From a virus, in the IMG/VR virus record IMGVR_UViG_3300007775_000380, positions 1 through 23,815 of that record: DNA of 23,815 bases. One strand, 5' to 3'. The position numbers and the translations under genes are program-made. Positions 937 to 22,654 of this stretch are shown piece after piece. The notes below the pieces were generated by a model. The model searched no databases, was not told where the DNA came from, and saw only the letters and a program-made list of their open reading frames with translations. Every line of letters begins with the position of its first letter. The first letter of the stretch is position 1.

Positions 937-962
937 CTAATGCCCCCTCCTTCTCGGGTCAG

Positions 963-1505: not shown

Positions 1506-1517
1506 TAAACTTCACCC

Positions 1518-1703
1518 TCATTTCTTTGCGTACCTTACCATAGCTTGCGAGAAGAGCGGGGAAGGGCTGCCGCCTACGACCGGAGCTACAACCTGAAAAT
1601 CTCCGAACGGCTGCCAGCCCTTGGAAATGAGGTTGTTTACTTCGGTGACCAGTTTTTTGAGGTCGTGTTCAGAAATGGCCCGGTATTCTTCAATGCCTTG
1701 CAT
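1518..1703 (-). CDS. DUF1737-type small protein (61 aa)
   Basis: The sequence has the layout of DUF1737 proteins: an N-terminal YRAIS strand, a helix with a LEELVNxxIxxGW-like pattern (here LKKLVTEVNNLISKGWQPFG), and a final QAMVRY strand. These are short proteins of unknown function, often found in phages and near bacterial defence or regulatory genes. The open frame continues upstream to 1844, but the ATG at 1701-1703 has a well-placed AAGGGG ribosome site and begins just before the conserved YRAIS, so the longer version is rejected; it would also overlap the immA-like gene. A gap of 115 nt separates it from that gene, and 12 nt from the next membrane protein gene. Confidence 0.7.
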   Translation of the reverse strand: MQGIEEYRAISEHDLKKLVTEVNNLISKGWQPFGDFQVVAPVVGGSPSPLFSQAMVRYAKK

Positions 1704-1818
1704 AGAATTCCCCTTATTTTGGTTTTGTAATGCGTTCCTGTGGTTTTTTCTTGGTTTGTGTGATTGCGTCTCCAAAGAGATTAGAGCCGACTTTAGGCAA
1801 TTGTTTAAAATGAGATGT

Positions 1819-2391
1819 CTAAAGCCTACCTTTGATAAAGCCAAGATTAACCAGGCGATATTTCATTGCTTGCTTAGACACCTTGAAAAGGTTCGACATT
1901 TGCTCAATGAAAAAATTTACTGGGACTTTGTCTACGTTGTTTTCGCCTTTATATGTTTCTATGATTTTTTTCCCATGTTTTTTTATTAATTCGTGAGGCA
2001 TAAGTAGTTGTGCAGCAAAGTTGTTTGCTTCATATTCTTTAGAATCCCAATATGTTTCACTTCTGCTAAGAGAATTTTTGCTATCGACTATTTTATTTGA
2101 TCCTTCATTTTTATCCAAATGCAAAATGTAGTGACCTATTTCATGTGCTATTGTGAACCTTCTTCTGTTTTCATAGTTGTTTTCTGCTGGATTTAACCAA
2201 ATTTTAGGTCTATTGTTTGCAAAAGATATTGAGCCTATTTTGTCTAAGAGTTCCATATCTATTGTTTCAACAATTTTTATTTTTAGAATATCGCAAATCT
2301 TTTCTACATCAATTGGGGGACAAAATTCAAAGTCAAAATTTTTGGTTAAGAACTTTAATAACATCTTTGGAGTGATTTCATTCCTATTCAT
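1819..2391 (-). CDS. immA: ImmA/IrrE-family metallopeptidase (190 aa)
   Basis: Residues 80-90 contain the zinc-protease motif HEIGHYILH (HExxH at 83-87), and KEYEANNFAAQLLMP around 119-132 supplies the third ligand, Glu121, in the typical E-A-x-x-F-A-A-x-L-L-M-P context. This is diagnostic of the ImmA/IrrE (DUF955) family. Family members such as ImmA of ICEBs1 cleave a cognate repressor to induce the element. I chose the ATG at 2389-2391 (MNRNEITPK) because GGAGGAGG lies directly upstream; the longer frame to 2436 has no such site. Its start lies inside the upstream gene, an 8-base overlap suggesting translational coupling. The gene is markedly AT-rich. Family members usually sit next to an Xre/CI-type repressor; here the nearest repressor is about 1.1 kb upstream on the same strand, with two genes between. 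Confidence 0.9.
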   Translation of the reverse strand: MNRNEITPKMLLKFLTKNFDFEFCPPIDVEKICDILKIKIVETIDMELLDKIGSISFANNRPKIWLNPAENNYENRRRFTIAHEIGHYILHLDKNEGSNKIVDSKNSLSRSETYWDSKEYEANNFAAQLLMPHELIKKHGKKIIETYKGENNVDKVPVNFFIEQMSNLFKVSKQAMKYRLVNLGFIKGRL

Positions 2392-2896
2392 TTTTGGAAT
2401 CCTCCTCCAATTCAAGCTGGACAGACAAATCTCCAATTTCTTTGTCAGCTAAATCATGCTCTCGATTTTTTATTTCATCTTTTACTTTTGCATCAACAAG
2501 GCTTTCTAGCCTCTCCTTGGTGGCCGTGTGTTTAAATAGTTTTTTTGTGAACGAATCGGCCAGAGTGCTATCGGTGTTTAAGTTGAAAAAGAAATCATGC
2601 ATATTATCTTGAATTTCTCTTTCTTTTACGGCCCCGAACCATTTCGCAAAGTATAGCCCAACTGCCGTCACCAGCAAGGTGATAACAACGAAAATAAAAG
2701 TGGTATATACAATATAGGTATTTGCTGTTGCCATTACGTCGGATGAAGAAACTGCCCAGCTCGCAGGTGAAGTGTGTCTTGAGTGGGCAGCGGCTGCATC
2801 TTGGAAAAGATCAAAAGTTAGCCCACCCAAAAGGCCTGCAAGGTATGCAACGCACAAAAGCCCTGTGAAATTAAGTATTTTGATTATTTTTGCCAT
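2384..2896 (-). CDS. Two-helix membrane protein coupled to ImmA (170 aa)
   Basis: No family is recognised. One hydrophobic segment lies at about residues 7-27 (ILNFTGLLCVAYLAGLLGG), followed by a ~35-residue loop containing a His/Ser/Ala-rich stretch. A second long hydrophobic segment spans about 60-85 (TYIVYTTFIFVVITLLVTAVG), followed by ~85 charged residues likely to form a cytoplasmic helical tail (many E, K and D). The loop between the helices would therefore be periplasmic. The ATG at 2894-2896 has an AGAGGT ribosome site. The stop overlaps the start of the ImmA-like gene by 8 bases, so the two products are made from one message. It might anchor or sense signals for ImmA, or act in exclusion; both are inference from the overlap only. 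Confidence 0.75.
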   Translation of the reverse strand: MAKIIKILNFTGLLCVAYLAGLLGGLTFDLFQDAAAAHSRHTSPASWAVSSSDVMATANTYIVYTTFIFVVITLLVTAVGLYFAKWFGAVKEREIQDNMHDFFFNLNTDSTLADSFTKKLFKHTATKERLESLVDAKVKDEIKNREHDLADKEIGDLSVQLELEEDSKNE

Positions 2897-2972
2897 ATTG
2901 ACCTCTACGTAGCCGATCTAGCCAGTCGCAGTACCGTCTATTTATTGACATCTTTCTAGTAATAAATGTGAA

Positions 2973-3503
2973 TCAGTCTTTGCAAAGCCTCTCTCGTTTC
3001 CGCCGCAAAGAACTATCCATTCGAGTTTTTGCTGTATGGCAATCATCACATAGGGTTGCCAAATTAGCGATGGAATTGTCCCCGCCATTTTGCAGCGCCC
3101 GCTTATGATCGACTTCCAGCTTGTAGGTGCTGCCGCAGATAACGCATTGATTTCCGTCCCTTGACTTGATGAATTCCTTGACGGATTGCGAGACGTCTCT
3201 TTCGTAAATGGTTTGGTCGCAGGACAGGGCCCCAACATTTTCATTTGCCTGCCGAAAATATTCGTTGAGCCGCTGTTCGCGAATTGCGGAAGAGATCTGT
3301 GTGGACTGGCGCGGGGATTTTTCCTGGCGGGTCGCTCTGGCAGAAGAATTGGCTCGCTTCTGGTGGTAATGGTATTCGCCCGTTTTTCTGTTGTGGTGGC
3401 CACCGTTGGCATCCAAGCCACCTGGGTGCGAGAAAACCAAGCCGGGAAGAGTAATTAAAATGAGAATTGAACCGAGAAGTCTTCGTCCCCCTCGAACAAG
3501 CAT
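2973..3503 (-). CDS. Secreted YHYH-domain HNH nuclease (176 aa)
   Basis: The N-terminus is a good Sec signal peptide: basic RGGRR, hydrophobic LLGSILILITLPGL, probable cleavage after about residue 26 (VFS). It is followed at once by a YHYH-type motif (HPGGLDANGGHHNRKTGEYH, about 26-46), a short metal-binding-like module found after signal peptides in many bacterial proteins. The C-terminal half carries an HNH endonuclease: CVIC at 120-123, LEVDHK with His133 as general base, NLATLC and CDDCH at 152-156, giving a complete four-cysteine zinc site. The ATG has an excellent AAGGAGGG site. It lies 17 nt after the repressor gene, same strand. A non-specific exported nuclease acting on DNA in the periplasm or outside is the best reading, possibly for exclusion of incoming DNA; the substrate is unknown. 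Confidence 0.85.
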   Translation of the reverse strand: MLVRGGRRLLGSILILITLPGLVFSHPGGLDANGGHHNRKTGEYHYHQKRANSSARATRQEKSPRQSTQISSAIREQRLNEYFRQANENVGALSCDQTIYERDVSQSVKEFIKSRDGNQCVICGSTYKLEVDHKRALQNGGDNSIANLATLCDDCHTAKTRMDSSLRRKRERLCKD

Positions 3504-3520
3504 TGTTCCCTCCTTGCCCC

Positions 3521-3925
3521 CTACGCCGCCAACCTGATCAGCCGCAGCACCGTCTTCTTGTCGACGTCTTTTTCTTCCTCGTACATCTCGTAAATGTGAA
3601 TGATGAGTTCGGCTTTTTTGTCGGGCTTGAGTTCCAGGTTGAGCTGGCCAAGGCCTTCTTCCACGGCCTCGATGATCACCTGGAGGAGTTCCTTGTCGAG
3701 AGGTTTCCCTTCCGATCGCTTTTCCCCCACACCAGTTTTTAGCCAGTGGAAGTTGATTCCTGAAAGGTCAGAAACCTTTGCAATACTGCCATCTGGCACC
3801 GATCCTCTTTTTTTCCATTTGCTAGCTGTCCCAAGCGAAAAACCAGCCAAGTCCTGCATATCCTGCTGGTTTTTGGCGTTTAACGCCTCGATCATTCGAT
3901 CAATAATTTCTTCAACAGATGACAT
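3521..3925 (-). CDS. CI-type phage repressor, HTH domain (134 aa)
   Basis: Residues about 5-65 match the bacteriophage CI repressor HTH type: IIDRMIEALNAKNQQDMQ, LAGFSLGTASKWKKRGSVPD and the closing INFHWLKTG, a signature of this domain (usually N-x-x-WLxTGxG). The rest (about 66-134) is charged and helical, with no S24-type Ser/Lys autoproteolysis domain visible, so RecA-driven self-cleavage is unlikely; the ImmA-like protease encoded in the same block could be the inducer route. I use the ATG at 3923-3925 (MSSVEE); the longer frame to 3955 runs into the operator region and lacks a ribosome site. The gene is transcribed away from the rightward early promoter, as expected of a lysogeny maintenance gene. 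Confidence 0.85.
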   Translation of the reverse strand: MSSVEEIIDRMIEALNAKNQQDMQDLAGFSLGTASKWKKRGSVPDGSIAKVSDLSGINFHWLKTGVGEKRSEGKPLDKELLQVIIEAVEEGLGQLNLELKPDKKAELIIHIYEMYEEEKDVDKKTVLRLIRLAA

Positions 3926-3940
3926 TTGGAATTTTTTCCG

Positions 3941-3969
3941 TTGACAAAATGCCAAACGGCATTTATTGT
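3941..3969 (+). promoter_or_regulatory. Rightward early promoter (sigma70-type)
   Basis: A perfect -35 box TTGACA (3941-3946) is followed after 17 nt by TATTGT (3964-3969, four of six matches to TATAAT). It reads toward the 84-aa early gene at 4003 and lies in the 77-nt gap between that gene and the divergent repressor gene. An inverted repeat fills its spacer, so repression by the CI-like protein is likely. Confidence 0.65.
3947..3964. promoter_or_regulatory. Candidate CI operator: 18-bp inverted repeat
   Basis: AAATGCC-AAAC-GGCATTT is a perfect 7-bp inverted repeat with a 4-bp spacer, lying between the -35 and -10 boxes of the rightward promoter and 21 bp from the repressor start. A looser outer pair, GACAAA and TTTGTC, brackets it. 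Size, symmetry and place are those expected of a repressor operator; binding is inferred. Confidence 0.6.
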
Positions 3970-4002
3970 TTGTCCCAACAGTTAGACACGAAAGGGGACG
4001 TT

Positions 4003-4257
4003 ATGAGTAAGGCAAAAATAATCTTGATCAACGGTGCCGGTCGCGGAAAGAGCTTCTTGGCCTCCATTTTGGCTAAGGAGTATCTCAGGAACGGCATCGA
4101 ATGCCAGGTGGAGCATGTGGCCTCTCAGCAGGAGGCCGAATCCCTGACTCCTCCTGCTTCGGGCTATCTGATCATCGTTACCAATACAGTCCTCATGATG
4201 GAGGAAATTTGGCAAACGATTACTGTCGAGGGCGGTTATCTCTTACCAGCGGCCTGA
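4003..4257 (+). CDS. Small P-loop-like early protein (84 aa)
   Basis: The protein opens with KIILINGAGRGKSFLASILA, a strand followed by a Walker A-like loop (GAGRGKS) and helix. A later hydrophobic strand, YLIIVTN (about 54-60), resembles the second strand of small P-loop NTPases. The classical first glycine of GxxxxGKS is Asn here, and 84 residues are too few for a full NTPase, so it may be a minimal or degenerate nucleotide-binding protein. The ATG at 4003 has AAAGGGGA upstream and lies about 33 nt downstream of the -10 box; the longer frame from 3919 crosses the operator and is rejected. It occupies the place of cro, the first rightward gene, but I see no HTH in it. Its 3' end overlaps the convergent gene by 22 bp. 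Confidence 0.65.
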   Translation: MSKAKIILINGAGRGKSFLASILAKEYLRNGIECQVEHVASQQEAESLTPPASGYLIIVTNTVLMMEEIWQTITVEGGYLLPAA

Positions 4258-4631
4258 TATACCGGACATCTTTTCGATACGCCGATCCCCGGGTTGGGGG
4301 AGTCGTCGAAAGCCTTCATCGGAACACCGAGATAGAGGGCAGCGGCGATCATGGCCCCATTGCAGATGTAATCCCCGGTGGAATATTCGGCGCGGTGTTT
4401 CAAGTTGTAGCTGGAGGGGGAGGTTCGAGTGACTGTTTTGGTCGTTTGGCATTGACGAAGCCAACCAACCGATCTCTTGAACTCGTCAAACCGGAGGGTG
4501 AGGGAAGCGCGATTCCCCTCAAGGTCGATTTTCATCAACCGGCCTTGGTGAGGGTTCCACCATCCCCATGCGCACAAGGGAGGGTGTTTTACGATGAGAG
4601 CTAGGAACTGCTGTTCGGTAGGTTGATTCAT
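4236..4631 (-). CDS. Conserved phage-type protein with SSYxLKH...GDYICNGAMIAAA motif (131 aa)
   Basis: I cannot name a function. The central motif (SSYNLKHRAE, then TGDYICNGAMIAAALYLGV, roughly residues 72-103) resembles a family of uncharacterised proteins of phages and plasmids with S-Y-x-L-K-H, followed about 10 residues later by Y-x-S/C-N-G-x-x-I-A-A-A. The N-terminus is rich in aromatic residues (CAWGWWNPHQ). The ATG has GGGGGGAAG upstream. It is the only minus-strand gene right of the repressor and points back at the early P-loop-like gene, so the two messages overlap at their 3' ends by 22 bp and could interfere with each other. The 62-bp gap to the next gene must hold its own promoter and that of the rightward neighbour. 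Confidence 0.7.
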   Translation of the reverse strand: MNQPTEQQFLALIVKHPPLCAWGWWNPHQGRLMKIDLEGNRASLTLRFDEFKRSVGWLRQCQTTKTVTRTSPSSYNLKHRAEYSTGDYICNGAMIAAALYLGVPMKAFDDSPNPGIGVSKRCPVYQAAGKR

Positions 4632-4693
4632 TACTTCCCCCCTTCTTAGTCAGACAATTAGGACAGTTTTACCAATCTTCGGAGAGTTTTTCA

Positions 4694-4921
4694 ATGACAA
4701 AGTCTGTAGCCAACATCGTGATCTCCCGGATGCGTTTGAACAACGTGACGGTGAAGGGTTGGGCCGAGGTCAACGACCACAAGCCGGACACCGTCTACAA
4801 GACCCTCTACGGTACCCGTGGCAAGGCCGATCGAGGCGAATCGCTCAAAATCAAGGAGGGCCTGCGGCGCGACGGCTACTGGCCGACTGATAAGGAGAGT
4901 GAGGCGGCCTCGAATGGCTAA
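4694..4921 (+). CDS. BcepMu gp16-like phage DNA-binding protein (75 aa)
   Basis: The core VTVKGWAEVNDHKPDTVYKT with LYGTRGKADRGESLKIKEGL and the final RRDGYWP matches the small phage-associated gp16 family first noted in the transposable phage BcepMu, where a helix-turn-helix (W-A-x-x-x-x-x-x-x-x-x-V-Y-x-x-L-x-G) is followed by R-G-x-x-x-x-I-x-x-x-L. It is probably an early transcription regulator. The ATG has GGAGAG seven bases upstream. It is the first gene of the long rightward series and lies divergent from the 131-aa gene. About 70 nt separate it from the CII-like gene. Confidence 0.65.
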   Translation: MTKSVANIVISRMRLNNVTVKGWAEVNDHKPDTVYKTLYGTRGKADRGESLKIKEGLRRDGYWPTDKESEAASNG

Positions 4922-4989
4922 TTCCCCCTGTCGTAACAGTAGCGGAGCAGGCATGAACTCGACATTAAAAACGAGGGTGGTTTTTTAGT

Positions 4990-5460
4990 ATGAGATCACA
5001 CGAGGCAATTCGCCGCATGGTCGGCGAGCATCATGAGGAGATCGCGAAGGCGATTCACAGGAGCGCGAACCTGGTCTATCGCTGGACGCTGCCGACGACG
5101 GACTACACGGACTCGGGAGCGTTCAACGACCTGGACCGGATCGAAAACGGAATGCGCCGGGCTCTGGAGTTAGAAGTGCCCCACGTCGACGCACTGGCGC
5201 CGATTCACTACTTGGCCTTGAAGTTCGGCGGCCGCTTCCTGCCGCCTGTCCCTCACGCCTGTGGATTTAAGGACCTGAGCCGCCAGCTGACCCGGGCGAT
5301 GAAGGAGACGAGCGAGGCCTTCGCGATCGCGGCGGAGGCGCTGGAGGATCATGAACTGACGCCGGCAGAGCGGCGGCGGATCATCAAGGAAACCTACGAG
5401 GGGATCCACGAGCTTTCCCAGATCATCAGCATGCTGGAAAGCGGGGAAGGGGAGGGGTAG
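4990..5460 (+). CDS. CII-like phage regulatory protein (156 aa)
   Basis: The N-terminal ~90 residues (HEAIRRMVGEHHEEIAKAIH, RSANLVYRWTLP, then NDLDRIENG and ALKFGGRFLPP) follow the layout of a phage regulatory family common in proteobacterial prophages: an H-x-x-I helix, an HTH of the type A-x-x-x-x-x-S-x-x-x-V-Y-K-W, N-P-L-D-R, and a closing G-G-x-F. The C-terminal ~65 residues are helical and acidic, with LTPAERRRIIKETYEGIHEL. A CII-like activator or replication-associated DNA-binding role is likely; the exact subfamily is uncertain. The start has GAGGGTGG upstream. It leads a tightly spaced group with the next two genes (3-nt gap, then direct abutment). Confidence 0.65.
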   Translation: MRSHEAIRRMVGEHHEEIAKAIHRSANLVYRWTLPTTDYTDSGAFNDLDRIENGMRRALELEVPHVDALAPIHYLALKFGGRFLPPVPHACGFKDLSRQLTRAMKETSEAFAIAAEALEDHELTPAERRRIIKETYEGIHELSQIISMLESGEGEG

Positions 5461-14082: not shown

Positions 14083-14122
14083 CAATCATTAAACATTGAA
14101 TCCAGCGAGTCAAGGAAAAATC

Positions 14123-15421
14123 ATGGCCTTCATCGGTTCCATCAGTCAGCCGCTTCGCAAGTTTTTCGGCACCCATGCCCGCCTGCTGAAAGACCGGCGG
14201 GTGTACGTCGGCTGCAGCGGCAACTTCACCATCGAGGCAATCCTCTCCGCTACCTGTCCTAGCGCCGAGCTCCACAGCAACGACGTCTCCCTCTACTCCA
14301 CCGCCGCCGGCTATATGCTCACCTGCCGCCACCTGCCCCTGGAGATCGTCCACCCGGAACTGTCCTGGCTAAACGATTACGCCAAGCGCGGCGCAGCCGA
14401 GCAGGTCGCCTCCCTCATGCTCCTGGTCGAGGCCCTCAAGTTCGAAAAACGCAACAACCGCTTCAAACAGCGCATGTGGCAGGCCTACGTCGACCAGTTC
14501 CCGGGCATGTTCGAGAAGACCCTCGCCAAGGTCCACAAATTCCGCGAGGCCGTCAAGATCCGGGAATACACCACCGTCGACGCCTTCGACTACTTCCCCC
14601 GCCGGGACGGCGTCTCCATCGGTTTCCTGCCCACCTACGTCGGCGGTTACGAAAAGCTCTTCAAGGCCCTAGACGAGTCTATCCGGTGGGAGCCGCCCGC
14701 CTACGATATCCTCACCACCGAGCGGCGCCTCGCCACCATCGAAAAGATGGCCGAGGGCGACTACATCCTGTACGACGACGTCGAGCGCGATCTGCCCTGC
14801 GTCGCCAAGGTGCGGCAGCGGGGCAAGCGGGCCGTCTATATCTACAGCAACCTCCCTTTCCCCGGCGCCCTCATGCGCCAGAGAAGCAACGAAAAGGTTC
14901 GCCACTTTCCCATCCTCATGCCCGATGACGAAATCCCCGCCGATTCCGAGATCACCATCCGGCAGGTCGACCTGGCCACCGTCAACCACTACCGCAACCT
15001 CTACCTCAGCAAGCGGATCGCCCCGGCCCCGGCCGACATCTCTTTCCTGGTCTTCGCCGGCGGCAAGCTGATCGGCGCCATGATGTTCACCGCCTATTCG
15101 GTCAAGATCAAGAGTCCCACCGAGATCTACCTCATGTCCGACTTCGCCGTTCCCAGCAACCGGCACCCGCGCCTATCCAAGCTCATGCTCATGGTCACCC
15201 TCTGCCGGGAGACTCGCGAGGTCCTCGAAAAAACCCAGATCAAGCGATACCGGACCATCCTCACGTCCGTCTTCACCGACAAGCCCGTTTCCATGAAGTA
15301 CCGCGGCCTCTATAAGCTCGCCAAGCGCGGCGACGGCTTCCTCAACTATCGCGGCACCTTCGGAGACATGACCCACAAGGAGGTTATTGCGGCATGGAAA
15401 GCCAAGTACGACAAACGCTGA
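14123..15421 (+). CDS. Candidate DNA-modification enzyme: SAM-MTase-like plus GNAT/Mom-like (432 aa)
   Basis: Near the N-terminus, RRVYVGCSGNFTIEAILSA followed by ELHSNDVSLYSTAAGYML has the form of a SAM-binding loop and acidic strand. I know this motif from phage proteins annotated as putative antirestriction adenine methyltransferases. The C-terminal third (ISFLVFAGGKLIGAMMFTAY, EIYLMSDFAVPSN, RHPRLSKLML, then TSVFTDKPVSMKYRGLYKLA) has the strand-helix order and the P-x-S-x-x-Y-x-x-x-Y feature of GNAT-like Mom proteins, which modify adenine in Mu DNA. The likely role is protecting phage DNA from host restriction. The ATG at 14123 has AAGGAA upstream; the TTG at 14096 is weaker. The 3' end overlaps the ParB-like gene by 28 bp. 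Whether it methylates, carbamoylates or does both is open. Confidence 0.6.
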   Translation: MAFIGSISQPLRKFFGTHARLLKDRRVYVGCSGNFTIEAILSATCPSAELHSNDVSLYSTAAGYMLTCRHLPLEIVHPELSWLNDYAKRGAAEQVASLMLLVEALKFEKRNNRFKQRMWQAYVDQFPGMFEKTLAKVHKFREAVKIREYTTVDAFDYFPRRDGVSIGFLPTYVGGYEKLFKALDESIRWEPPAYDILTTERRLATIEKMAEGDYILYDDVERDLPCVAKVRQRGKRAVYIYSNLPFPGALMRQRSNEKVRHFPILMPDDEIPADSEITIRQVDLATVNHYRNLYLSKRIAPAPADISFLVFAGGKLIGAMMFTAYSVKIKSPTEIYLMSDFAVPSNRHPRLSKLMLMVTLCRETREVLEKTQIKRYRTILTSVFTDKPVSMKYRGLYKLAKRGDGFLNYRGTFGDMTHKEVIAAWKAKYDKR

Positions 15422-16161
15422 GCCAGCTCAACGCCCAGTTGGCCGACCGGTTCCCCTACAAGCTCGACATGGTCGACCCCGGGCGGATCCGGCTTCTCGA
15501 CAAAAATGCCCGCTACATGGAGCACGAGACGTTCCAGAACCTCGTCTCCAACGTCCAGCGCGACGGCGGCCTCTCCTCGATGCCGCTCTGCTTCAAGGAG
15601 GCCGACGGCTCCCTGCTCGTGCTCTCCGGCAACCACCGGGTCCAGGCCGCCGCCCAGGCCGGCGTCGAGGAGATCCTCGTCATGGTCATCGACCGGCCCC
15701 TGTCGCGGCAGGAGCAGATCGCCATCCAGCTTTCGCACAACTCCCTTGCCGGCAAGGACGACATGGTGATCCTGCGCGAGCTATGGCAGGAGATGGCCGA
15801 CGTCGACCTCAAGTATTACGCCGGCCTCGACTCCGACACCCTCGGCGAGATCGACAAGCTCCAGTTCGAGACGCTCTCCGACGTCAAGCCCGACTTCGAG
15901 CAGGTCGTTTTCCAGTTCCTGCCCGAAGAGACCCAGGAGCTCCAGGCCATCGTCGACGACGTCGACGCCATCTTCTCGAAAGACCAGAATTTCATCCTGG
16001 CCCGCGACCATTACGACGACGTCTTCGACCTGCTCACCCAGGTCAAGGGCGGCTACAACATCGTCAGCAACCCGGCGGCCATGGCCAAGGTGATGAGCCT
16101 CGCGCGAAAGGCCATGGACGAAGATCCCGAACTCGACGACGAGGAGGAAGAAGACCTATGA
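15394..16161 (+). CDS. ParB-like nuclease-domain protein (255 aa)
   Basis: Residues about 23-115 form a ParB N-terminal domain: VDPGRIRLLDKNARYME, ETFQNLVSNVQRDGGLSSMP, LVLSGNHRVQAAAQAG (box II with GNHR at 79-82 in place of GERR), then IAIQLSHNSLAGKDD. There is no clear ParB HTH afterwards; the C-terminal half is acidic (QELQAIVDDVDAIF, final DDEEEEDL). Single ParB-domain proteins of this type recur in phages next to DNA-modification genes, and the ParB fold binds CTP or in some proteins cuts DNA. The gene overlaps the modification enzyme by 28 bp with AGGAGG upstream, and overlaps the next gene by ATGA, so the three form one operon. A role in steering the modification enzyme is inference. 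Confidence 0.8.
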   Translation: MESQVRQTLSQLNAQLADRFPYKLDMVDPGRIRLLDKNARYMEHETFQNLVSNVQRDGGLSSMPLCFKEADGSLLVLSGNHRVQAAAQAGVEEILVMVIDRPLSRQEQIAIQLSHNSLAGKDDMVILRELWQEMADVDLKYYAGLDSDTLGEIDKLQFETLSDVKPDFEQVVFQFLPEETQELQAIVDDVDAIFSKDQNFILARDHYDDVFDLLTQVKGGYNIVSNPAAMAKVMSLARKAMDEDPELDDEEEEDL

Positions 16162-16517
16162 ACGCATTCACCCTGATCATGCAGGAGCGCCAGCGCCAGA
16201 TAAAGGAAGAGGGCTTGACTCCCGAGCACGACGACGAACACAGCGCCGGCGAGCTGGCCCAGGCTGCCGAGGTCTACCGGTCGGCCGACTCCGAGGCCTC
16301 CAGCGAGCCGCCTCCCGAGTGGCCATGGCGCCCGGGCTGGTACAAGCCCGCTTCCCGCCTGCGCAACCTGGTCAAGGCCGGCGCCCTTTACCAGGCCGAG
16401 CTCGACCGGCTCGAACGCCTCCGGAGGGAGACTCACCGCCGCTTGCTGGCCGTCATGGTCGAGACCGACACCATTTTGATCGGAGAGAAAATAAAAGAAA
16501 CCGACGCTAAATCGTAA
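16158..16517 (+). CDS. Conserved phage protein, ERQRQI...TPEHDDEH type (119 aa)
   Basis: The pattern QERQRQIKEEGLTPEHDDEH, then GELAQAAEVY, EWPWRPGWYKP, RNLVKAGALYQAELDRLER is well conserved among many tailed phages and prophages of proteobacteria. I know of no proven function. Its helical layout with E/D/H residues recalls MazG-like nucleotide pyrophosphohydrolases, but the full metal motif is not evident. It starts inside the ParB-like stop codon (ATGA) and ends 37 nt before the -35 box of the PRTRC promoter, so it closes the modification operon. Confidence 0.7.
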   Translation: MNAFTLIMQERQRQIKEEGLTPEHDDEHSAGELAQAAEVYRSADSEASSEPPPEWPWRPGWYKPASRLRNLVKAGALYQAELDRLERLRRETHRRLLAVMVETDTILIGEKIKETDAKS

Positions 16518-16553
16518 GTAGCCGAAAAAAGGACGTTTTTTGCATTTTTTTAC

Positions 16554-16581
16554 TTGACTTTGTAATTACAAAAAGTAGTAT
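16554..16581 (+). promoter_or_regulatory. Strong sigma70-type promoter of the PRTRC cassette
   Basis: TTGACT (16554-16559) and TAGTAT (16576-16581) are 16 nt apart, in the most AT-rich stretch of the right half (about 16530-16600). An alternative TATATA overlaps at 16579-16584. It lies just before the RadC/JAB gene and starts a new transcription unit. Confidence 0.65.
16559..16572. promoter_or_regulatory. Operator palindrome in the PRTRC promoter spacer
   Basis: TTTGTAATTACAAA is a perfect 14-bp palindrome lying between the -35 and -10 boxes. A bound dimer would block RNA polymerase. The regulator is unknown; it differs from the CI-type operator at 3947-3964, so a different protein is likely. 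Confidence 0.55.
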
Positions 16582-16622
16582 ATAAATAAATAAAAACACA
16601 GCAAAGTCAAGGAGTTATGAAA

Positions 16623-17060
16623 ATGCGGATTTCGTCGATGAGAGTTGAACTGGTCAAGGAGAAATGGGTGAGCTACGAGGGGCCTTCCCGTGTCGGCAGC
16701 AGCGAGGCGGCAGTCCAGTTGTTTCGGGCACGCATCGGCAACAGCGACCGGGAAAACTTCGTTGTCATCCTCCTGGATGCCAAGAACAAGCCGCTCGGCA
16801 TCCAGACCGTGAGCATCGGCTCCCTGACCGCCGCGATCGTCCATCCCCGCGAAGTCTTCAAGGCGGCGATCGTCAGCAACGCAGCCGCCGTCGTGGCCGG
16901 GCACAACCATCCCTCGGGCGATCCGACTCCCAGCCGCGAGGACCTCGAAATCACGAAGAGGCTCAAGGAATCGGGCGAGCTCCTGGGCATCGGTTTCCTG
17001 GATCACGTGATTCTTGGTGATGACGACTATGTGAGTTTTGCCGACAGAGGCCTTCTGTGA
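16623..17060 (+). CDS. RadC/JAB (JAMM) metallopeptidase-like protein (145 aa)
   Basis: The complete JAMM zinc site is present: Glu44 in SDRENFVVILLD, His94 and His96 in AGHNHPSGDPTPSREDLE, Ser104 and Asp107. It corresponds to the RadC JAB domain alone, without the N-terminal HhH part of RadC. JAB enzymes of ubiquitin-like systems cut modifiers off targets or trim their C-termini, and PRTRC cassettes carry a JAB gene. ATG occurs twice; the second (16623) has AAGGAG at an 8-nt spacing while the first has only 2 nt, so I use 16623. It is the first gene after the PRTRC promoter. A stand-alone phage RadC with an unrelated role remains possible. Confidence 0.85.
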   Translation: MRISSMRVELVKEKWVSYEGPSRVGSSEAAVQLFRARIGNSDRENFVVILLDAKNKPLGIQTVSIGSLTAAIVHPREVFKAAIVSNAAAVVAGHNHPSGDPTPSREDLEITKRLKESGELLGIGFLDHVILGDDDYVSFADRGLL

Positions 17061-17074
17061 AAGGAGAAAGAACG

Positions 17075-17296
17075 ATGACCGAGGGAGCCTTCAACACCGG
17101 CCTGCAGGAACTGCTGGAACTGATGATCGAAAGCGCCGAAACCGAGAACGACAGCACCATGGAGGAATGTTTTGGAACGACCATAGAGAAGGTCAGAACC
17201 TTCGAGGAAGCCGAGGTCCTTTCCAATGTTCCCGGCCTGGTCGTAACCCTTGCCGACGGGAAAGAGTTCCAGGTGGCCGTGGTGCGCAGCTGCTAA
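17075..17296 (+). CDS. Hypothetical small protein (73 aa)
   Basis: I do not recognise it. The sequence is acidic in the first half (LQELLELMIESAETENDSTM) and ends in strands (VRTFEEAEVLSNVPGLVVTL, ADGKEFQVAVVRSC). The ATG at 17075 follows AAAGGAGA and is preferred over an in-frame GTG at 17057 that overlaps the RadC stop. It lies between the JAB gene and the ParB gene with short gaps (14 and 33 nt), so it belongs to the cassette transcript. The strand-rich C-terminus with a D-G turn is the only structural clue. Confidence 0.6.
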   Translation: MTEGAFNTGLQELLELMIESAETENDSTMEECFGTTIEKVRTFEEAEVLSNVPGLVVTLADGKEFQVAVVRSC

Positions 17297-17329
17297 CCGA
17301 GAAAGTCAACCAAAGGAGGAGAGAGAACC

Positions 17330-19171
17330 ATGGCAAGAAAAAGTACGAAGAAAAAAGAGGCTTCGCCGCCAGGCAGCACCGACGGATTCTTTTCCGTCAT
17401 GTCGCTGTCCCTTCTGGCCCCCAACGATTTCAACGCCCGCCGCTTCGAAGAGAACATGACGCCGCAGCGCCGGGCCCGGTTCGAAGAGCTAACCGCCTCG
17501 ATCCGAGAGAAGGGCATTATCCAGCCGCTCCTGGTGCGGATGATCAGCGCCGACCACTTCGAGGTCGTCGCCGGAGAGCGCCGGTACCGCGCCGCCCTCG
17601 AGGTTGTCAAGCGGCTCGGAATATCCCCGGAACAATACGAGGTCCCCTGCATGGTCCGGGAAATCGACGACGATGCCGCCTTTGATCTCATGCTCGTCGA
17701 GAACCTGCAGCGCGAAGACCTCACGCCCTTCGAGAGCGCCCAGGCCTTTCGCGCCTACCTCGACCGGCACGGCAACACGCCCGAGGCCGCGGCCGACCTA
17801 GCCACCCGCACCGGCGTTCCCGTCCACGCCATCCGCCGGCAGGCCCGCCTGATCGATCTGCCCGAAGAAGCTCTCAAGGCATGGCGGGAGGGGGATCTCA
17901 CCCAGTCCCACCTGGAGACGCTCACCCGCTTCTGCGACCGGGAGCGCATCCTCCAGGCCCTGGCCGAGTGTCTGCGCCGCAAGCTCTCCGTCAAGGAATT
18001 CCGCGAATACGTCGCCGGCATCTCGCCCGACCTCGACAAGGGCTTCTTCGACAAGGCCGAGTGCCAGAGCTGTTCGCACAACACCGCCGTGCAAAGCGGA
18101 CTCTTCGCCGACGAGTCGCCCGGCGCCCGGTGCTGCAACCCCGCCTGTTTCGAGGAAAAGCAGGGAGCGTTCCTGACCGAGAACTGGCCGAAGAGCAAGC
18201 CCGCCGAAACCTTCGGCACCCGCGGCTTCCGGTTTGGCCACCGCATCGTCGGCGAGTATCGCGAGATTGTTACGGGCGAGACGGTCGATCGCTGCAGGGA
18301 ATGCGATGCCTTCGTGTCCCTGCTGCGCCTGACCGGCGTCGTCGTCAGCGGATACGACCGGACCTGCATCGGCTCCCGCGAGTGCTTCGAGGAACTGTAT
18401 TGCCCCAAGGCCGCGCCGCCTCCGGAGGAAGAAGCCGAAGAACCGGAAGAAACCTCCAGCCTCGGCGAACATCTGGCGGCCGCCCGCGAGAAGAAAAAAG
18501 AGAGCCAGGCCTCCGAGCCGGTACCGGCTTCGACAACCTCCGGCAGGCTGGAGAAGCCGGCGGCATCGCCGCCCGAAGAGACCGGGCCCGTCTTCAACGC
18601 TCAGCGTGGGGAGAGGTTCCGCAAGGAATTCGTCAAGACCGCGCTGCCGGAGCTGGCCGTGGCCGAGGGGTTCGAGGCACCCAAGTTGCGACTCGCCCTG
18701 GTTGCCCTCGCGCTTTCCTCCTCGGCGGCGAAGACTCATCTGCTCGCCGCCCTCGGGTTGAAGGGCAACGTCAAGCCCGATCGGCTGGCGGAAGAGATCT
18801 TCGAGATCCCGGCCGAGGACGTCCTCGGCGAGCTGATGAAGGCCTCCGTCGCCCAGGTCCTGAACGACTACACCCTCATGCCCGCCGTCTGGGAGCTGGT
18901 CGCCCAGCGCTTCGGGATCGACTTCGCGGGCGACTGGCGCATCACCGAGGAGTATTTGAACACCCTGACCAAGAGCGAGATCGTTCGGATCGGCGAAGAG
19001 CCCGACGTCGACATCTGGACGGATGACAAGGTCAAGGCGTGGCGCAAGGAACACCACAAGGGCAAGGCGCTGCTCTCGCTCAAGAAAGAGGAGCTGATCG
19101 CCATGATCCTCAAGAGCGGCGCGGATCTCGCCTGGCGGGTTCCAGCCGAGGTTGCCGGGAAGAGGAAGTAG
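17330..19171 (+). CDS. Large ParB-family protein of the PRTRC cassette (613 aa)
   Basis: An intact ParB core is visible: NDFNARR at 32-38, SIREKGIIQPLLVR at 57-70, box II GERRYRAA at 82-89, VENLQREDLTPFESAQAF at 123-140, and a KorB/Spo0J-type HTH at about 152-172 (AAADLATRTGVPVHAIRRQA). ParB proteins with this core bind CTP and clamp on DNA. Next comes a likely zinc cluster (CQSC at 245-248, CC at 268-269, C273) and a Glu/Ala/Pro linker at about 360-420. A C-terminal region follows, ending VKAWRKEHHKGKALLSLKKE. PRTRC cassettes are named for such a ParB-related gene. No parA gene is present, so this is unlikely to be a partition system. AAGGAGGAGAG precedes the ATG. Confidence 0.85.
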   Translation: MARKSTKKKEASPPGSTDGFFSVMSLSLLAPNDFNARRFEENMTPQRRARFEELTASIREKGIIQPLLVRMISADHFEVVAGERRYRAALEVVKRLGISPEQYEVPCMVREIDDDAAFDLMLVENLQREDLTPFESAQAFRAYLDRHGNTPEAAADLATRTGVPVHAIRRQARLIDLPEEALKAWREGDLTQSHLETLTRFCDRERILQALAECLRRKLSVKEFREYVAGISPDLDKGFFDKAECQSCSHNTAVQSGLFADESPGARCCNPACFEEKQGAFLTENWPKSKPAETFGTRGFRFGHRIVGEYREIVTGETVDRCRECDAFVSLLRLTGVVVSGYDRTCIGSRECFEELYCPKAAPPPEEEAEEPEETSSLGEHLAAAREKKKESQASEPVPASTTSGRLEKPAASPPEETGPVFNAQRGERFRKEFVKTALPELAVAEGFEAPKLRLALVALALSSSAAKTHLLAALGLKGNVKPDRLAEEIFEIPAEDVLGELMKASVAQVLNDYTLMPAVWELVAQRFGIDFAGDWRITEEYLNTLTKSEIVRIGEEPDVDIWTDDKVKAWRKEHHKGKALLSLKKEELIAMILKSGADLAWRVPAEVAGKRK

Positions 19172-19174
19172 GCC

Positions 19175-20230
19175 ATGAACGCGCAGACCATCGCCGCCCG
19201 CATCGGCACTGCCATTGACGGGGAGCATCTGGTTGCCATGCCCGAACCCGCCGCGGCCCTGGCCGTTCGCACCTTGGGCGACTTGCTGACCCAGTGGAAG
19301 GGAGGGTGTGTTTTGGCGGATGCCGGCTCCTATCTCCGTCGGCCCTGCTTTGCACCCCGGCCCCGTCGCAGCGGCCGTCCCCTGCCGGCTCCTCGTCCAA
19401 ACATCGCCTCCGTCAAGCCGGTCAGCGCCCGTCTTCTCGCCTCCATCACCGGAGCATGGGCCTATTTCGAGTCAGTTGGGAAGACCGACCCCGCTTTGCT
19501 GCAGGGACCTGTCGCCGGAGAAGGACTCGAAAGGCTCGTCGAACTTCTCGTGGAGGAAGTCGGGGAACAGTGGCCCTTGGCCGCATACCTGGAGGAGGTC
19601 GTTTTCGAGGCCGAGAATCTCGCTGCCCATCATGGCCTGTGTTTGGTTCTTCCTCATATGGTCTACGAAGACGAGGCCGCCGGCGTCATCGAGGCCTTCC
19701 TTAGCGGGCCGCAGCACGTACATTCCTGGCTCGCGCATTCCTACGAGCTGATGCAGCACGAGCCGACGTTCGATCTTGAACTTCCTCCGAAAGACCACTC
19801 CCTGATCAAGGAAATCGGTTTCGGCCGATTGGTTGAAACCTACGCTACTTATGAAGGGGAAAAGAGTGTCGACCTGAAGAAGCTGGAGAGTTGGTGGGAA
19901 ACATATTTCGGCAAGGTTGTGAAGGAGTTTCCCGTCCTTGCCGAAGAAGAATGGCCGATCATCTGCGGCAACGGCGGGCAGGATGCGGAACTCGTCATTA
20001 CCTCCGCCAAGGACATACGGTTCGCCGTCGCTTACTCCGATGCCTATTACACGATGATGGACGACCTTCCGGACCCGTGGCAGATGGATCATAACGATGA
20101 TGGAGCCACCGAAACCTTCATTCACGAGATCTGCGAGGTTTGGCGCAAGGCCAACGGAAAACGGTCCGTAAGGTGGACTACTCCAAAGCAACAGAGGCTT
20201 TCATATCTCTATCGGGAGGGGAAGCTATGA
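19175..20230 (+). CDS. Probable PRTRC system protein F (351 aa)
   Basis: The call rests mainly on size and place between the ParB-related gene and protein B; I see no catalytic motif. The N-terminal ~75 residues contain a basic, proline-rich part (PRPRRSGRPLPAPRP). The middle is rich in acidic helices (LVELLVEEVGEQWPLAAYLE), and the C-terminal half has aromatic, acidic strands (FAVAYSDAYYTMMDDLPDPW). It contains several Cys and His residues but no ordered zinc knuckle. It begins 3 nt after the ParB stop and its own stop overlaps the start of the next gene (ATGA), so it is translated with both. Its role, perhaps scaffold or target adaptor, is unknown. Confidence 0.55.
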   Translation: MNAQTIAARIGTAIDGEHLVAMPEPAAALAVRTLGDLLTQWKGGCVLADAGSYLRRPCFAPRPRRSGRPLPAPRPNIASVKPVSARLLASITGAWAYFESVGKTDPALLQGPVAGEGLERLVELLVEEVGEQWPLAAYLEEVVFEAENLAAHHGLCLVLPHMVYEDEAAGVIEAFLSGPQHVHSWLAHSYELMQHEPTFDLELPPKDHSLIKEIGFGRLVETYATYEGEKSVDLKKLESWWETYFGKVVKEFPVLAEEEWPIICGNGGQDAELVITSAKDIRFAVAYSDAYYTMMDDLPDPWQMDHNDDGATETFIHEICEVWRKANGKRSVRWTTPKQQRLSYLYREGKL

Positions 20231-20868
20231 ACGATAACGCCACCACGCAGCGCCAGCTCTACGGCGTCGGCATCTTCGAGGAGGAGATCGTCCTTTCCGA
20301 CTTCACCGGCGAAGCCGAGCGTCGTTTCCTGGTCACTCCGGAACAGCTGATGGATTTCTTCCGGGCCGAGCGGACCTTTGTCCCTTTCCCCGGTTTGGTC
20401 TGGATGAAGGCAGACGGGGTGCGGGAGCGATACCTCTTCACACTGCCGCCCGGGCGGCGCACCATCCTTTACCGGCGAAAGAAGAAGGTCGTCGGCAAGC
20501 GCCTGCAGCTGCCGGCGATCGCCATCGAGGCGGCCGTCGTTCCGGCTGGAAGGATGATCCTCTCCATCCAACTTTGGGGATTCGCCGGCCGGGATCTCAA
20601 GGCGGACAGCATCCTCTACGAGCTGCCGCTTCCGAACCTGGGCGGCTCCAGCCTTTGCCTCGGCAGCACCGAGCGCGCGATTTCCGGCGATGTCCTCGGC
20701 GCCGTCGAGCGAACCATCTTCGATACCCCGTTCAACCACCACAACCACCTGGTCGGGAAAGAGTCCTTGCCGTTCCACGACTATGTCAAGAAATACGACG
20801 GCCGCTGCCCCCTGCGCACGCTCAAGCGCATCGGCCGCGGCCGCGACATCCTGGAGGGAAACCGATGA
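20227..20868 (+). CDS. PRTRC protein B, E2-like (213 aa)
   Basis: The C-terminal half has the PRTRC-B signature: ELPLPNLGGSSLCLGSTERA, where Cys144 sits in the position of the E2 active-site cysteine, followed by TPFNHHNHLVG (about 167-177), matching the conserved F-x-H-x-N element. The N-terminal half is strand-rich. Comparative genomics (Aravind and colleagues) places this family in the E2/UBC-like fold of prokaryotic ubiquitin-like pathways; activity here is inferred. I use the ATG at 20227, which overlaps the previous stop (ATGA) and has GGGAGGGG upstream; the longer frame from 20140 is shadow. It overlaps the E1 gene by ATGA, so E2-like and E1-like proteins are made in step. Confidence 0.8.
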   Translation: MNDNATTQRQLYGVGIFEEEIVLSDFTGEAERRFLVTPEQLMDFFRAERTFVPFPGLVWMKADGVRERYLFTLPPGRRTILYRRKKKVVGKRLQLPAIAIEAAVVPAGRMILSIQLWGFAGRDLKADSILYELPLPNLGGSSLCLGSTERAISGDVLGAVERTIFDTPFNHHNHLVGKESLPFHDYVKKYDGRCPLRTLKRIGRGRDILEGNR

Positions 20869-21617
20869 ACCGCAAGACGCACCTGGCCCCGCAGTTCCGC
20901 CGGCTGGTTCTGGTCGGCACCGGCGGCACCGGCAGCTACCTCGCCCAGGGACTGGCGAAGATGGTCGCCGGCTACCGGCTCGACATCGAGGTCATTCTCG
21001 TCGACCCCGACGTCGTCGAGGAAAAGAACTGCGCCCGGCAGAACTTCATGGCCTACGAGATCGGCCAGCCCAAGGCCGAGGCCCTGGCCTTCCGGCTCAA
21101 TCAGCAGTACGGCATCGGCTTCGGCGCCGTGTCGGCGAAGGGGGAAGAGTTTCTGTGGAACCCGGGATATTCGGGGATCCGCCACTCGCCCCGCCTGATC
21201 ATCACCTGCGTCGACACCGTCGAAGCCCGCAAGCACTACAAGGGCGCCGGGCCCTGGCTCGATCTCGGCAACGGGCAGGAAGCCGGCCAGGCCCTCTACG
21301 GCACCACCGAGGACAAGAAGAAGATCAAGGCCGAGCTCGAAGGGTGGGAGACCACGCCGCACGTCGGCGCCCTGCCGAGCCCCTACCTGGTCGCCAACAT
21401 GGCCCGGCGCCGCACCCGCAAGCGGCAGCCGTCCTGCGCCGACACTCCCTTTGCCGAGCAGGGCGTCTTCGCAAACGAATGGGCCGCCGCCGCAGGCCTC
21501 GCAATCCTGCGCCAGCTCCTGATCAAGGGGCAGCTGTCCACCCCGGCGATCTACTTCGACACCGGCAAGGGCCGGATGACGTCGGGATTTATTACACGGG
21601 AAACTCTAGCCGCTTGA
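20865..21617 (+). CDS. PRTRC ThiF-family protein, E1-like (250 aa)
   Basis: The adenylation site is intact: GTGGTG at 18-23, Asp47 with Asn55 and Arg58 (VDPDVVEEKNCARQN), spaced as D62/N70/R73 of MoeB, Lys70, and Asp117 in TCVDT. RQPSCADTPFAEQGVFANEW (188-206) is the conserved late block of PRTRC ThiF proteins, so Cys191 is a good candidate for the thioester or catalytic cysteine. The protein would adenylate the C-terminal glycine of the ubiquitin-like partner and pass it to protein B. It has no zinc-binding CxxC tail and no extra domain. The start overlaps protein B by four bases. I regard the family call as firm and the reaction as likely. Confidence 0.88.
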   Translation: MNRKTHLAPQFRRLVLVGTGGTGSYLAQGLAKMVAGYRLDIEVILVDPDVVEEKNCARQNFMAYEIGQPKAEALAFRLNQQYGIGFGAVSAKGEEFLWNPGYSGIRHSPRLIITCVDTVEARKHYKGAGPWLDLGNGQEAGQALYGTTEDKKKIKAELEGWETTPHVGALPSPYLVANMARRRTRKRQPSCADTPFAEQGVFANEWAAAAGLAILRQLLIKGQLSTPAIYFDTGKGRMTSGFITRETLAA

Positions 21618-21625
21618 GAGAGGTC

Positions 21626-21958
21626 ATGAAATTTACTGCAGAGCAATACGCCGAGGCCATTAACCGGTTGGAGTTGGCTGCAACGCAACTGGATCCTGAT
21701 GGGAGGTGCTGTGCCATTTGTGGTGACTCCGGCCATCAAGCTTGGGAATGCCATCACAACCCGCTGGTGCAGACAAAACATGTTGAAGCAGCGGAGAGCA
21801 AGTGGCGTTGCTTCCACTGCAATGAGGTCTTCGACGATTACGAGAAGGCGCGCCAGCATTTTGGAAACAATCCTTCGGCAACGCCTCGATGCGTCATGAA
21901 GAAATGTATGTGTCACGAGTGCCCCTGCAATCCAACGGAATGCGCCGGCAGGGGATAA
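21626..21958 (+). CDS. Cys-rich zinc-finger protein (110 aa)
   Basis: Three Cys/His clusters are visible: CCAIC-x5-H-x4-CHH (residues 28-44), a C2H2-like finger WRCFHCNEVFDDYEKARQHF (60-79), and KKCMCHECPCNPTEC (92-106). The middle finger followed by A-x-P-x-C is known to me from many small phage proteins of unknown function. It starts 8 nt after the E1-like gene and precedes the ubiquitin-like gene by three short ORFs, so it is part of the cassette transcript here. Because E3 ligases are often zinc proteins, an adaptor role is conceivable, but a plain phage nucleic-acid-binding protein is equally likely. The ATG at 21626 has GAGAGAGG upstream. Confidence 0.7.
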   Translation: MKFTAEQYAEAINRLELAATQLDPDGRCCAICGDSGHQAWECHHNPLVQTKHVEAAESKWRCFHCNEVFDDYEKARQHFGNNPSATPRCVMKKCMCHECPCNPTECAGRG

Positions 21959-21989
21959 CGAAAAACCAAAACCCAGGAGGAGACAACCA

Positions 21990-22268
21990 ATGGCAGAAAC
22001 CAGAGCACAGATCGCCTACCACTTCAGATTCGACCCGGCCAAGGAGACCCCCGGCCTTGTCCGGCTGCCGGAGATGATCACCCGCACCCTCTCCGTCGGC
22101 GAAGAAATCGTCCCCGAGAAAGTATCGTCGGCCGTCATCCCCGAGGCCGATCGGGCGGCACTGCTGGCCGAGATGGAAAACCAGGTCCGCGAAGCGAACC
22201 GCACCGCCAAGCCGGCCGGAGGATCCGCCGACGCCGAGGCGGATAAAGATGAGATGAGCGCGTTTTGA
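21990..22268 (+). CDS. Hypothetical protein (92 aa)
   Basis: No family is recognised. The N-terminal ~60 residues suggest a strand-rich fold (IAYHFRFDPAKETPGLVRLP, TRTLSVGEEIVPEKV), then a helix (EADRAALLAEMENQVREA) and a low-complexity acidic Ala/Asp/Glu tail ending EMSAF. AGGAGGAGA stands before the ATG, so it should be translated efficiently. It lies between the zinc-finger gene and a small CPYC protein, on the cassette transcript. I considered PRTRC protein E because of the position but see no convincing match. Confidence 0.6.
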   Translation: MAETRAQIAYHFRFDPAKETPGLVRLPEMITRTLSVGEEIVPEKVSSAVIPEADRAALLAEMENQVREANRTAKPAGGSADAEADKDEMSAF

Positions 22269-22284
22269 AAAGGAGAAAATTCTG

Positions 22285-22464
22285 ATGGGAAGCGGACTGT
22301 CACATAATGTGGCACTAGCCTTTATCGTGCGTAAAAGAGCAGAAACCGTAACCGTGAAGTGCCCGTATTGCCTGCAGGAGCATGAGCATTACTCGACCGG
22401 GGTTGCCGTGGCTATCTGCGGGCAGGGGGAATACAGCATCATCGAGCCAATGAAGAGGAGATAG
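22285..22464 (+). CDS. Small protein with a CPYC knuckle (59 aa)
   Basis: An ATG with AAGGAGAAAA upstream opens a 59-residue frame: MGSGLSHNVALAFIVRKRAE, then VKCPYCLQEHEHY and a later cysteine (AICGQGEYSI). CPYC plus H-x-H and C suggests a single zinc knuckle. Function unknown. It is 16 nt after the previous gene and 4 nt before the ubiquitin-like gene, whose ribosome site lies in its last codons, supporting its reality. Confidence 0.5.
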   Translation: MGSGLSHNVALAFIVRKRAETVTVKCPYCLQEHEHYSTGVAVAICGQGEYSIIEPMKRR

Positions 22465-22468
22465 AGAG

Positions 22469-22654
22469 ATGACCCAGCAAACCGACATGATCGTCAAGTT
22501 CGAAGGCAAGGAATACAACGTCCCGGCCGGGTTCACCGCCGAGGAATTCGTCGACTCTCTGGCCGTAACCAACCCCAAGGCGGCGACAGCGAAGCTGATC
22601 AAGGACGGGGAGGGGAAGTTCACCCTCAAGCCGACGTATCAGGACAAGGGGTGA
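22469..22654 (+). CDS. PRTRC protein C, ubiquitin-like modifier (61 aa)
   Basis: The sequence MIVKFEGKEYNVPAGFTAEE, FVDSLAVTNPKAATAKLIKD, then a strand and the C-terminus YQDKG has the PRTRC-C pattern: a beta hairpin with a G-x-x-Y/L-x-x-P turn, T-x-E-E-x-x-x helix, N-P-x-x-A-T-A strand, and a C-terminal K-G. This family is a small beta-grasp (ubiquitin-like) fold. The chain ends in Gly61 with nothing after it, so it would need no trimming before activation by the ThiF-like E1. At 61 residues it is slightly shorter than members I remember (about 65-75). GAGGAG lies before the ATG. It is separated from the E1 gene by three small ORFs, an unusual order. Confidence 0.75.
   Translation: MTQQTDMIVKFEGKEYNVPAGFTAEEFVDSLAVTNPKAATAKLIKDGEGKFTLKPTYQDKG

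Follow-up and report, generated by a model that had tools for sequence, protein, structure and literature searches.

Why would a bacteriophage carry its own apparatus for joining a ubiquitin-like protein to other proteins? The question is raised by a viral DNA of 23,815 nucleotides (IMG/VR record IMGVR_UViG_3300007775_000380; this whole stretch is called the window), in which genes for a ParB-like protein, an E2-like protein, an E1-like adenylating enzyme and a small ubiquitin-like (UBL) protein, here the tag, follow one another on one strand. A sequence-only reading had described them as a cassette of the ParB-related, ThiF-related (PRTRC) type. Comparison of the locus with its relatives and with PRTRC leads us to favour, with moderate confidence, a one-way E1-E2-tag cascade that is part of the core gene set of temperate lambda-like phages and may have a role between replication and packaging. 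On sequence comparison, the module is most likely a JAB-less sister of PRTRC. Its six genes lie in the window as follows.

17330-19171, plus strand: large ParB/Noc-like protein, 613 aa (PF02195, PF17762, PRTRC-type C-terminal region), first gene of the module.
19175-20230, plus strand: F-like protein, 351 aa, placed just before B as is PRTRC protein F; the fastest-evolving member.
20227-20868, plus strand: E2-like protein B, 213 aa (PF14460 Prok-E2_D), with Cys144 and His172.
20865-21617, plus strand: E1-like ThiF/UBA-type adenylating enzyme, 250 aa (PF00899), with candidate thioester Cys191.
21990-22268, plus strand: p2, small conserved protein, 92 aa, at best a positional analogue of PRTRC E.
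22469-22654, plus strand: ubiquitin-like tag, 61 aa, assigned by fold model and ending exactly at Gly61.

Scans with E1, tag and B gathered as relatives the phage contigs G001-G007 and G012, a 62.7-kb contig of a deltaproteobacterial metagenome-assembled genome (MAG); some of these records are fragments. The order ParB, F, B, E1, p2, tag is kept in seven of the eight phage relatives (G012 included), in the window and in pGSUB1, a 242-kb plasmid of Geoalkalibacter subterraneus (NZ_CP010312) that holds the complete module. As the module itself served to find the relatives, this count is not a full test of its fixation in the phage group. Conservation is highest in the tag and E1, with average identities to the window of 78% for the tag, 67% for E1, 62% for B, 61% for p2, 53% for ParB (about the same across all module-bearing relatives), 38% for F (34-42%), 37% for the terminase and 32% for the primase. 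The tag is 74-82% identical in the phage relatives and 59% in pGSUB1, whose E1 is 54% identical to that of the window; p2 is 50-68% identical in the phage relatives, including the E1-less G005, and 41% in the plasmid. Cys191 of E1, Cys144 and His172 of B and Gly61 of the tag are invariant across the alignments, and the ratio of nonsynonymous to synonymous substitution rates (dN/dS) of E1 and tag lies at 0.08-0.19, dS being close to saturation.

Spread on chromosomes through the MAG's class was considered and rejected: of 277 genomes, two have the tag, namely that MAG and one evidently Geoalkalibacter genome whose match coordinates are those of pGSUB1. The module is therefore rare and mobile. 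Judged from the MAG and pGSUB1 only, the phage hosts are probably Desulfuromonadia. The terminase closest to that of the window is in G001 (43%) and the closest E1 in G007 (73%); by these sequence identities the cassette has probably moved between phages as a unit.

Both enzymes exceed the cut-offs of their families. E1 scores 42.8 bits against PF00899 ThiF (cut-off 28.1) and carries a GTGGTG loop, the motifs NxxRQ and CVD, and Cys191 within PSCADTPF; its relatives in the PDB include UBA5, UBA6, the NEDD8 E1 and Cap2. Protein B scores 27.7 bits against PF14460 Prok-E2_D (cut-off 25), with its active-site cysteine, Cys144, in the motif LPN..CLGS and a downstream histidine, His172, that matches the displaced histidine described by Iyer et al. 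for the E2 of operon type 6d (PMC1779556). In ParB, ParB_N (70.2 bits) and HTH_ParB (50.5 bits) are likewise over their cut-offs. The sequence-only reading was accurate on this ground: the open reading frames (ORFs) that it named are all present where it placed them, the ATGA overlaps of F with B and of B with E1 can be read directly in the sequence, the adenylation site of E1 is there as a GxGGxG loop at residues 18-23, and so are Cys144, Cys191 (Met counted) and Gly61 as the end of the tag.

The tag is identified as ubiquitin-like because of its fold model, its invariant C-terminal glycine and its co-occurrence with E1 and E2. Its AlphaFold2 model (predicted local distance difference test, pLDDT, 81) has the order beta-beta-alpha-beta-beta with a loose tail at the glycine; the beta-grasp fold and free C-terminal Gly expected earlier are thus borne out in predicted structure. 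The top Foldseek matches of the model are the BAG6 Ubl and many ubiquitins (probability 0.98, E 0.03, TM 0.52). The best VIA-align rows are protein G and protein L domains (Z 5.4, root-mean-square deviation 3.0, 58 aligned), which we take to fall in the same beta-grasp class (SCOP); for a modelled structure, this supports the fold and not descent. Since the tag ends at Gly61 with no extension, it would need no processing; the C proteins of Hydrogenophaga and of Burkholderia phage BgVeeders33, in contrast, are extended.

G005 (positions 1-2256) retains p2 and the tag, but its ParB breaks off near residue 250 and it has no genes for F, B or E1. The tag there ends YQENG, so that Lys60, otherwise invariant (the others end KG), is replaced; in this one contig, which has neither E1 nor E2, such a change is as expected if E1 constrains the tag tail. 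From the sequence of this single contig there is a hint that F, B and E1 work as a unit with the ParB C-terminus, and also that p2 and the tag may have a further role. G005 was not accepted as proof of an E1-independent role, as the contig ends at ParB and may reflect a natural deletion or a misassembly. The p2 protein, about as conserved as B, had gone unnoticed in the sequence-only reading; it has an invariant core and a C-terminal ...DE(M/L)SAF (22247-22268), an acidic end that recalls the acidic tails of the single-stranded-DNA-binding protein (SSB) type, and PRTRC E proteins likewise tend to end in LF or LW.

How close is the module to PRTRC, which we read as operon type 6d of Iyer et al. 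(PMC1779556)? The comparison used the NCBIfam families TIGR03734-03738, 03741 and 03742. Both have a large ParB, a protein B of the Prok-E2_D family, a small tag with a C-terminal Gly and a stand-alone E1 with a PSC(A/S) active-site motif, and the combination of ParB with the gene order F-B-(A)-E1 by which PRTRC is recognised is present in the window. PRTRC, however, has a protein A (JAB) that the window module lacks, and its tag gene stands before F, whereas here it follows E1. None of the three larger proteins reaches its PRTRC cut-off: ParB scores 181.5 bits against TIGR03734 over residues 48-596 (cut-off 278.6), E1 111.7 bits against TIGR03736 (cut-off 144.75) and B 16.1 bits against TIGR03737 (cut-off 131.45). 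Profile-profile alignment does join B to PRTRC B (hhalign probability 95.5%, E 1e-8, 136 columns including LPN..C(L)G and the downstream His-Asn), but the tag could not be accepted as PRTRC C, with no TIGR03738 or PF14454 match and an hhalign probability of 0.8%; of the two proteins for which the sequence-only reading had made a PRTRC match decisive, one has it and the other does not. Neither p2 as PRTRC E nor the F-like protein as PRTRC F finds an NCBIfam or profile-profile match, and the latter matches no PDB sequence, so that the protein F candidate keeps its position just before B and not its family. What stands of the PRTRC assignment is relatedness, through Prok-E2_D and gene order.

A tree of 26 E1s leads to the same relation. 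Eight phage E1s group together (support 92/95) and are joined by that of pGSUB1 (98/99); beside this clade, and separate from it, stands the canonical PRTRC ThiF clade, which includes BgVeeders33 (100/99). The E1s of large phages, including Salmonella phage Arash, form one clade (99/97), two plasmid E1s, of Stanieria and Chlorohelix, are paired (99/97), and the MAG's other ThiF-superfamily proteins fall outside (100/97). From this topology, such E1s have probably entered phages on at least three separate occasions.

The most consequential departure from PRTRC concerns the protease, for which the sequence-only reading had proposed the RadC protein encoded in front of ParB. That gene and the other features around the module are listed here.

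16554-16581, plus strand: promoter-like site TTGACT/TAGTAT, overlapping a 14-bp perfect palindrome, TTTGTAATTACAAA, upstream of RadC.
16617-17060, plus strand: RadC-family JAB-domain protein (PF04002, 149.7 bits), first gene of the operon in the window.
17075-17296, plus strand: small 73-aa ORF between RadC and ParB, with no family match and no counterpart in the relatives' loci.
21626-21958, plus strand: Cys/His-rich small ORF between E1 and p2, window-specific, with no family over cut-off and no relative.
22285-22464, plus strand: small Zn-ribbon-like ORF between p2 and the tag, with sub-threshold zinc-ribbon matches only and no relative in the loci.

RadC does not belong to the cassette. 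It is over cut-off in the window only and absent from the module-bearing phage relatives and the plasmid, and the MAG's RadC match sits on a different contig from the cassette. The JAB profiles TIGR03735, PF14464 and PF04002 found nothing in the cassettes of all near relatives, nor was PRTRC_A found in the phage group and pGSUB1, while positive controls matched in both searches. A Prok-JAB (PF14464) match in G003 was discarded as cassette protease, being a lambda gpK-like tail protein with JAB and NlpC/P60 domains. Of the conjugation machinery proposed earlier, E1, E2 and tag therefore remain and the protease falls away. With a tag that would be made mature and without an accompanying JAB protease, the module, in contrast to PRTRC, would tag proteins in one direction only.

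The genomic surroundings tie the module to phages. The element is a real phage, as had been supposed, and probably a temperate one, because its left end has genes for a CI-type repressor and a CII-type regulator, among others. That end (1-5460) is low in G+C content and encodes the CI-type repressor, an HNH protein and an IrrE-like peptidase on the minus strand and the CII-type regulator on the plus strand; it is likely the lysogeny region. In relatives with a terminase, the gene order is primase, the six-gene module, a few genes, then the small and the large terminase. At its start, the ParB gene shares 4 nt with the primase gene in G001 and 11 nt in G002, and in G001 the terminase is followed by portal, head maturation protease and major head and tail proteins. 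The window departs from this order, its cassette coming after the terminase and being preceded by RadC; a site between packaging and morphogenesis genes, claimed earlier, holds for the window, but in the relatives the module lies between primase and terminase genes.

A ParB at the head of the module in all its members, and a close copy on pGSUB1, would also suit a ParB-led partition cassette, its ParB regulated by UBL conjugation, that maintains the phage genome as an extrachromosomal prophage of low copy number; PRTRC itself has been depicted as a partition locus of plasmids (PMC7466150). We consider this quite unlikely. No ParA was recognised in the window, the relatives have the module set between their primase and terminase genes, and the CI/CII-type region fits ordinary lysogeny equally. 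Nor was a palindrome common to the relatives seen upstream of ParB, TTTGTAATTACAAA being present in the window only. The pGSUB1 copy is the same JAB-less ParB-F-B-E1-p2-tag module, with the difference that no phage structural genes are annotated in the 30 kb around it. That such cassettes come mostly from plasmids holds for canonical PRTRC, but they are also present in several cultured phages.

Also in the window, at 14117-16158, a DAM-like plus GNAT-like protein (PF22555, PF22559) is encoded together with a ParB-like one (phrog_7405); the pair is probably a phage system for DNA modification of the Mom-like kind. Its nearness, with the ThiF/MoeB type of the E1 fold and the beta-grasp fold common to ThiS and MoaD (PMC1779556), could make the small protein a ThiS/MoaD-like thiocarboxylate donor and E1 its activator, serving modification of DNA, RNA or a metabolite. 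Such a sulfur carrier is improbable: all complete modules pair E1 with an E2-like Cys protein whose Cys and His are invariant, the window genes examined included no recognisable rhodanese or sulfurtransferase, and the Mom-like pair was not found beside the module in the relatives. In the tree, moreover, E1 sits with E1s of PRTRC type and away from the other ThiF-superfamily proteins of the MAG.

Other phages carry comparable genes. BgVeeders33 (OK665841, cultured) resembles the window in its phage-borne UBL-E2-E1 cassette and F-B-(A)-E1 order but has the full canonical PRTRC set E, C, F, B, A and ThiF, all over cut-offs, at 16213-20699; its C protein of 129 aa extends past the Ub domain, a JAB is present, its E1 is nested among those of plasmid PRTRC, and its proteins are mostly deposited as hypothetical. 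In Arash, Vibrio phage D69, Bacillus phage KLEB27-3 and contigs L016-L021 an E1 likewise adjoins an E2-D-like and/or a JAB protein, but several have a JAB, the E1s are 25-31% identical to that of the window, those tested fall in another clade, and no tag was recognised in any of these cassettes. In Arash (OQ632216, 1519-4539), gp246 is the E1 (ThiF), gp247 a JAB protein and gp248 E2-D-like (sub-threshold); gp249, of 60 aa and placed before the E2, was rejected as a tag, as it ends in Val with no Gly. All three enzyme genes have products listed among 116 particle-associated proteins, and the authors note that such enzymes may be carry-over (PMC10585845, Table 2). In crAss001 (MH675552, 2268-4666), gp76 (ThiF) adjoins gp77, a JAB-like metalloprotease (sub-threshold), near a primase and a uracil-DNA glycosylase; this is a possible related cassette in crAss-like phages, and a looser case. 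Within the open-access literature, which our search covered (subscription literature lay outside it), we found no paper on phage-borne PRTRC or on the crAss001 ubiquitin genes, and none noting the genes of BgVeeders33, Arash, KLEB27-3 or crAss001 as ubiquitin-like cassettes.

How, then, might the module work? Homologies, invariant residues, conservation, location, the absence of JAB and the fold model of the tag were read directly from the data, and from these we infer the following. The ThiF-like E1 would adenylate Gly61 of the tag and hold the tag as a thioester on Cys191; the tag would then pass to Cys144 of B, which would join it to amino groups of targets. F, whose translation overlaps that of the E2, and p2, whose gene always precedes that of the tag, would probably either choose the targets or be targets themselves, and the ParB-like protein, which binds DNA, may recruit the machinery to phage DNA. 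Such conjugation chemistry is likely and has good backing in the module's anatomy; whether tagging is irreversible is evenly balanced. Given the module's place in the replication-to-packaging stretch, it would most likely modify phage or cassette proteins during replication and the hand-over to packaging, although a role in the phage's own replication or packaging is put forward tentatively. The fullest version, a self-contained one-way conjugation system fixed in the phage's replication-to-packaging programme and tagging its DNA-bound or virion proteins, is on present evidence unlikely.

Several observations weigh against a conjugation cascade of this kind. The tag matches no UBL family by sequence (NCBIfam, Pfam, PDB sequence search), its Foldseek E-values are weak (0.03), and its tail is KG, not GG. 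The AlphaFold model of B is too poor (pLDDT 58.7) to judge a UBC fold, and no UBC chain is among its structure matches. The persistence of p2 and tag in G005, where F, B and E1 are gone, leaves room for a further role; a host or unrelated deconjugase may exist despite the missing JAB, and some of the records searched for JAB are fragments; and the proteomic hint from Arash concerns a distant, JAB-bearing cassette in a 116-protein list that includes ordinary enzymes (PMC10585845).

A different use of the same chemistry would be defence or counter-defence, in which the phage tags proteins of competitor phages or of the host, or the tag mimics and clogs host UBL immunity. Bacterial E1-E2-UBL systems do act in phage conflict (PMC11153139, PMC10097602): Bil, in the part of its literature summarised in PMC12135933, tags tails, and Cap2 tags CD-NTase. 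The lambda tail protein gpI has a Ub domain that gpK cleaves off (conference report PMC12908700). Bil, CBASS Cap2/Cap3 and lambda gpI/gpK thus share with the window a UBL, E1/E2 or JAB chemistry tied to phages. The exchange of the module between phages with different terminases would also fit, and PADLOC E1-E2 models do align to E1, although only to residues 3-85, over the adenylation loop. Cap3 and gpK are JAB proteases. Nothing else was matched by PADLOC among the module proteins, and no CD-NTase, effector or other match appeared among the proteins tested. Cap2 fuses E2 and E1, whereas the window E1 stands alone, separate from its E2 and with no known defence partner genes. The module is in every group member found (the members having been found by module search) and in the replication-packaging core, not an accessory hotspot, and the tag is strongly constrained, not fast-changing. 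Defence or counter-defence is accordingly somewhat unlikely, and a replication-to-packaging cascade remains the reading we favour.

PRTRC-type cassettes are common on plasmids, and we found no paper giving them a tested function. The window module would be a smaller, protease-less version kept as a phage module, with its tag in mature form, and as a minimal four- to six-gene system it suits testing whether this E1/E2 family conjugates and to what; related cassettes in the cultured BgVeeders33, Arash and KLEB27-3 make the question accessible to direct genetics. If tagging is real, bacterial viruses would use ubiquitin-like modification for their own reproduction, and not only hosts against viruses; given that no fewer than three phage lineages have PRTRC-like cassettes, ubiquitin-like tagging by viruses would, if true, be a recurrent feature of bacteriophages.

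Transcription of the whole stretch as one unit, assumed in the sequence-only reading, is plausible from the common strand, the short gaps and the lack of a terminator-like site on the plus strand, but the promoter-like site is at chance level: as a promoter the site at 16554-16581 was rejected, with one such site found and 1.5 expected by chance. The palindrome TTTGTAATTACAAA between its hexamers may be an operator.

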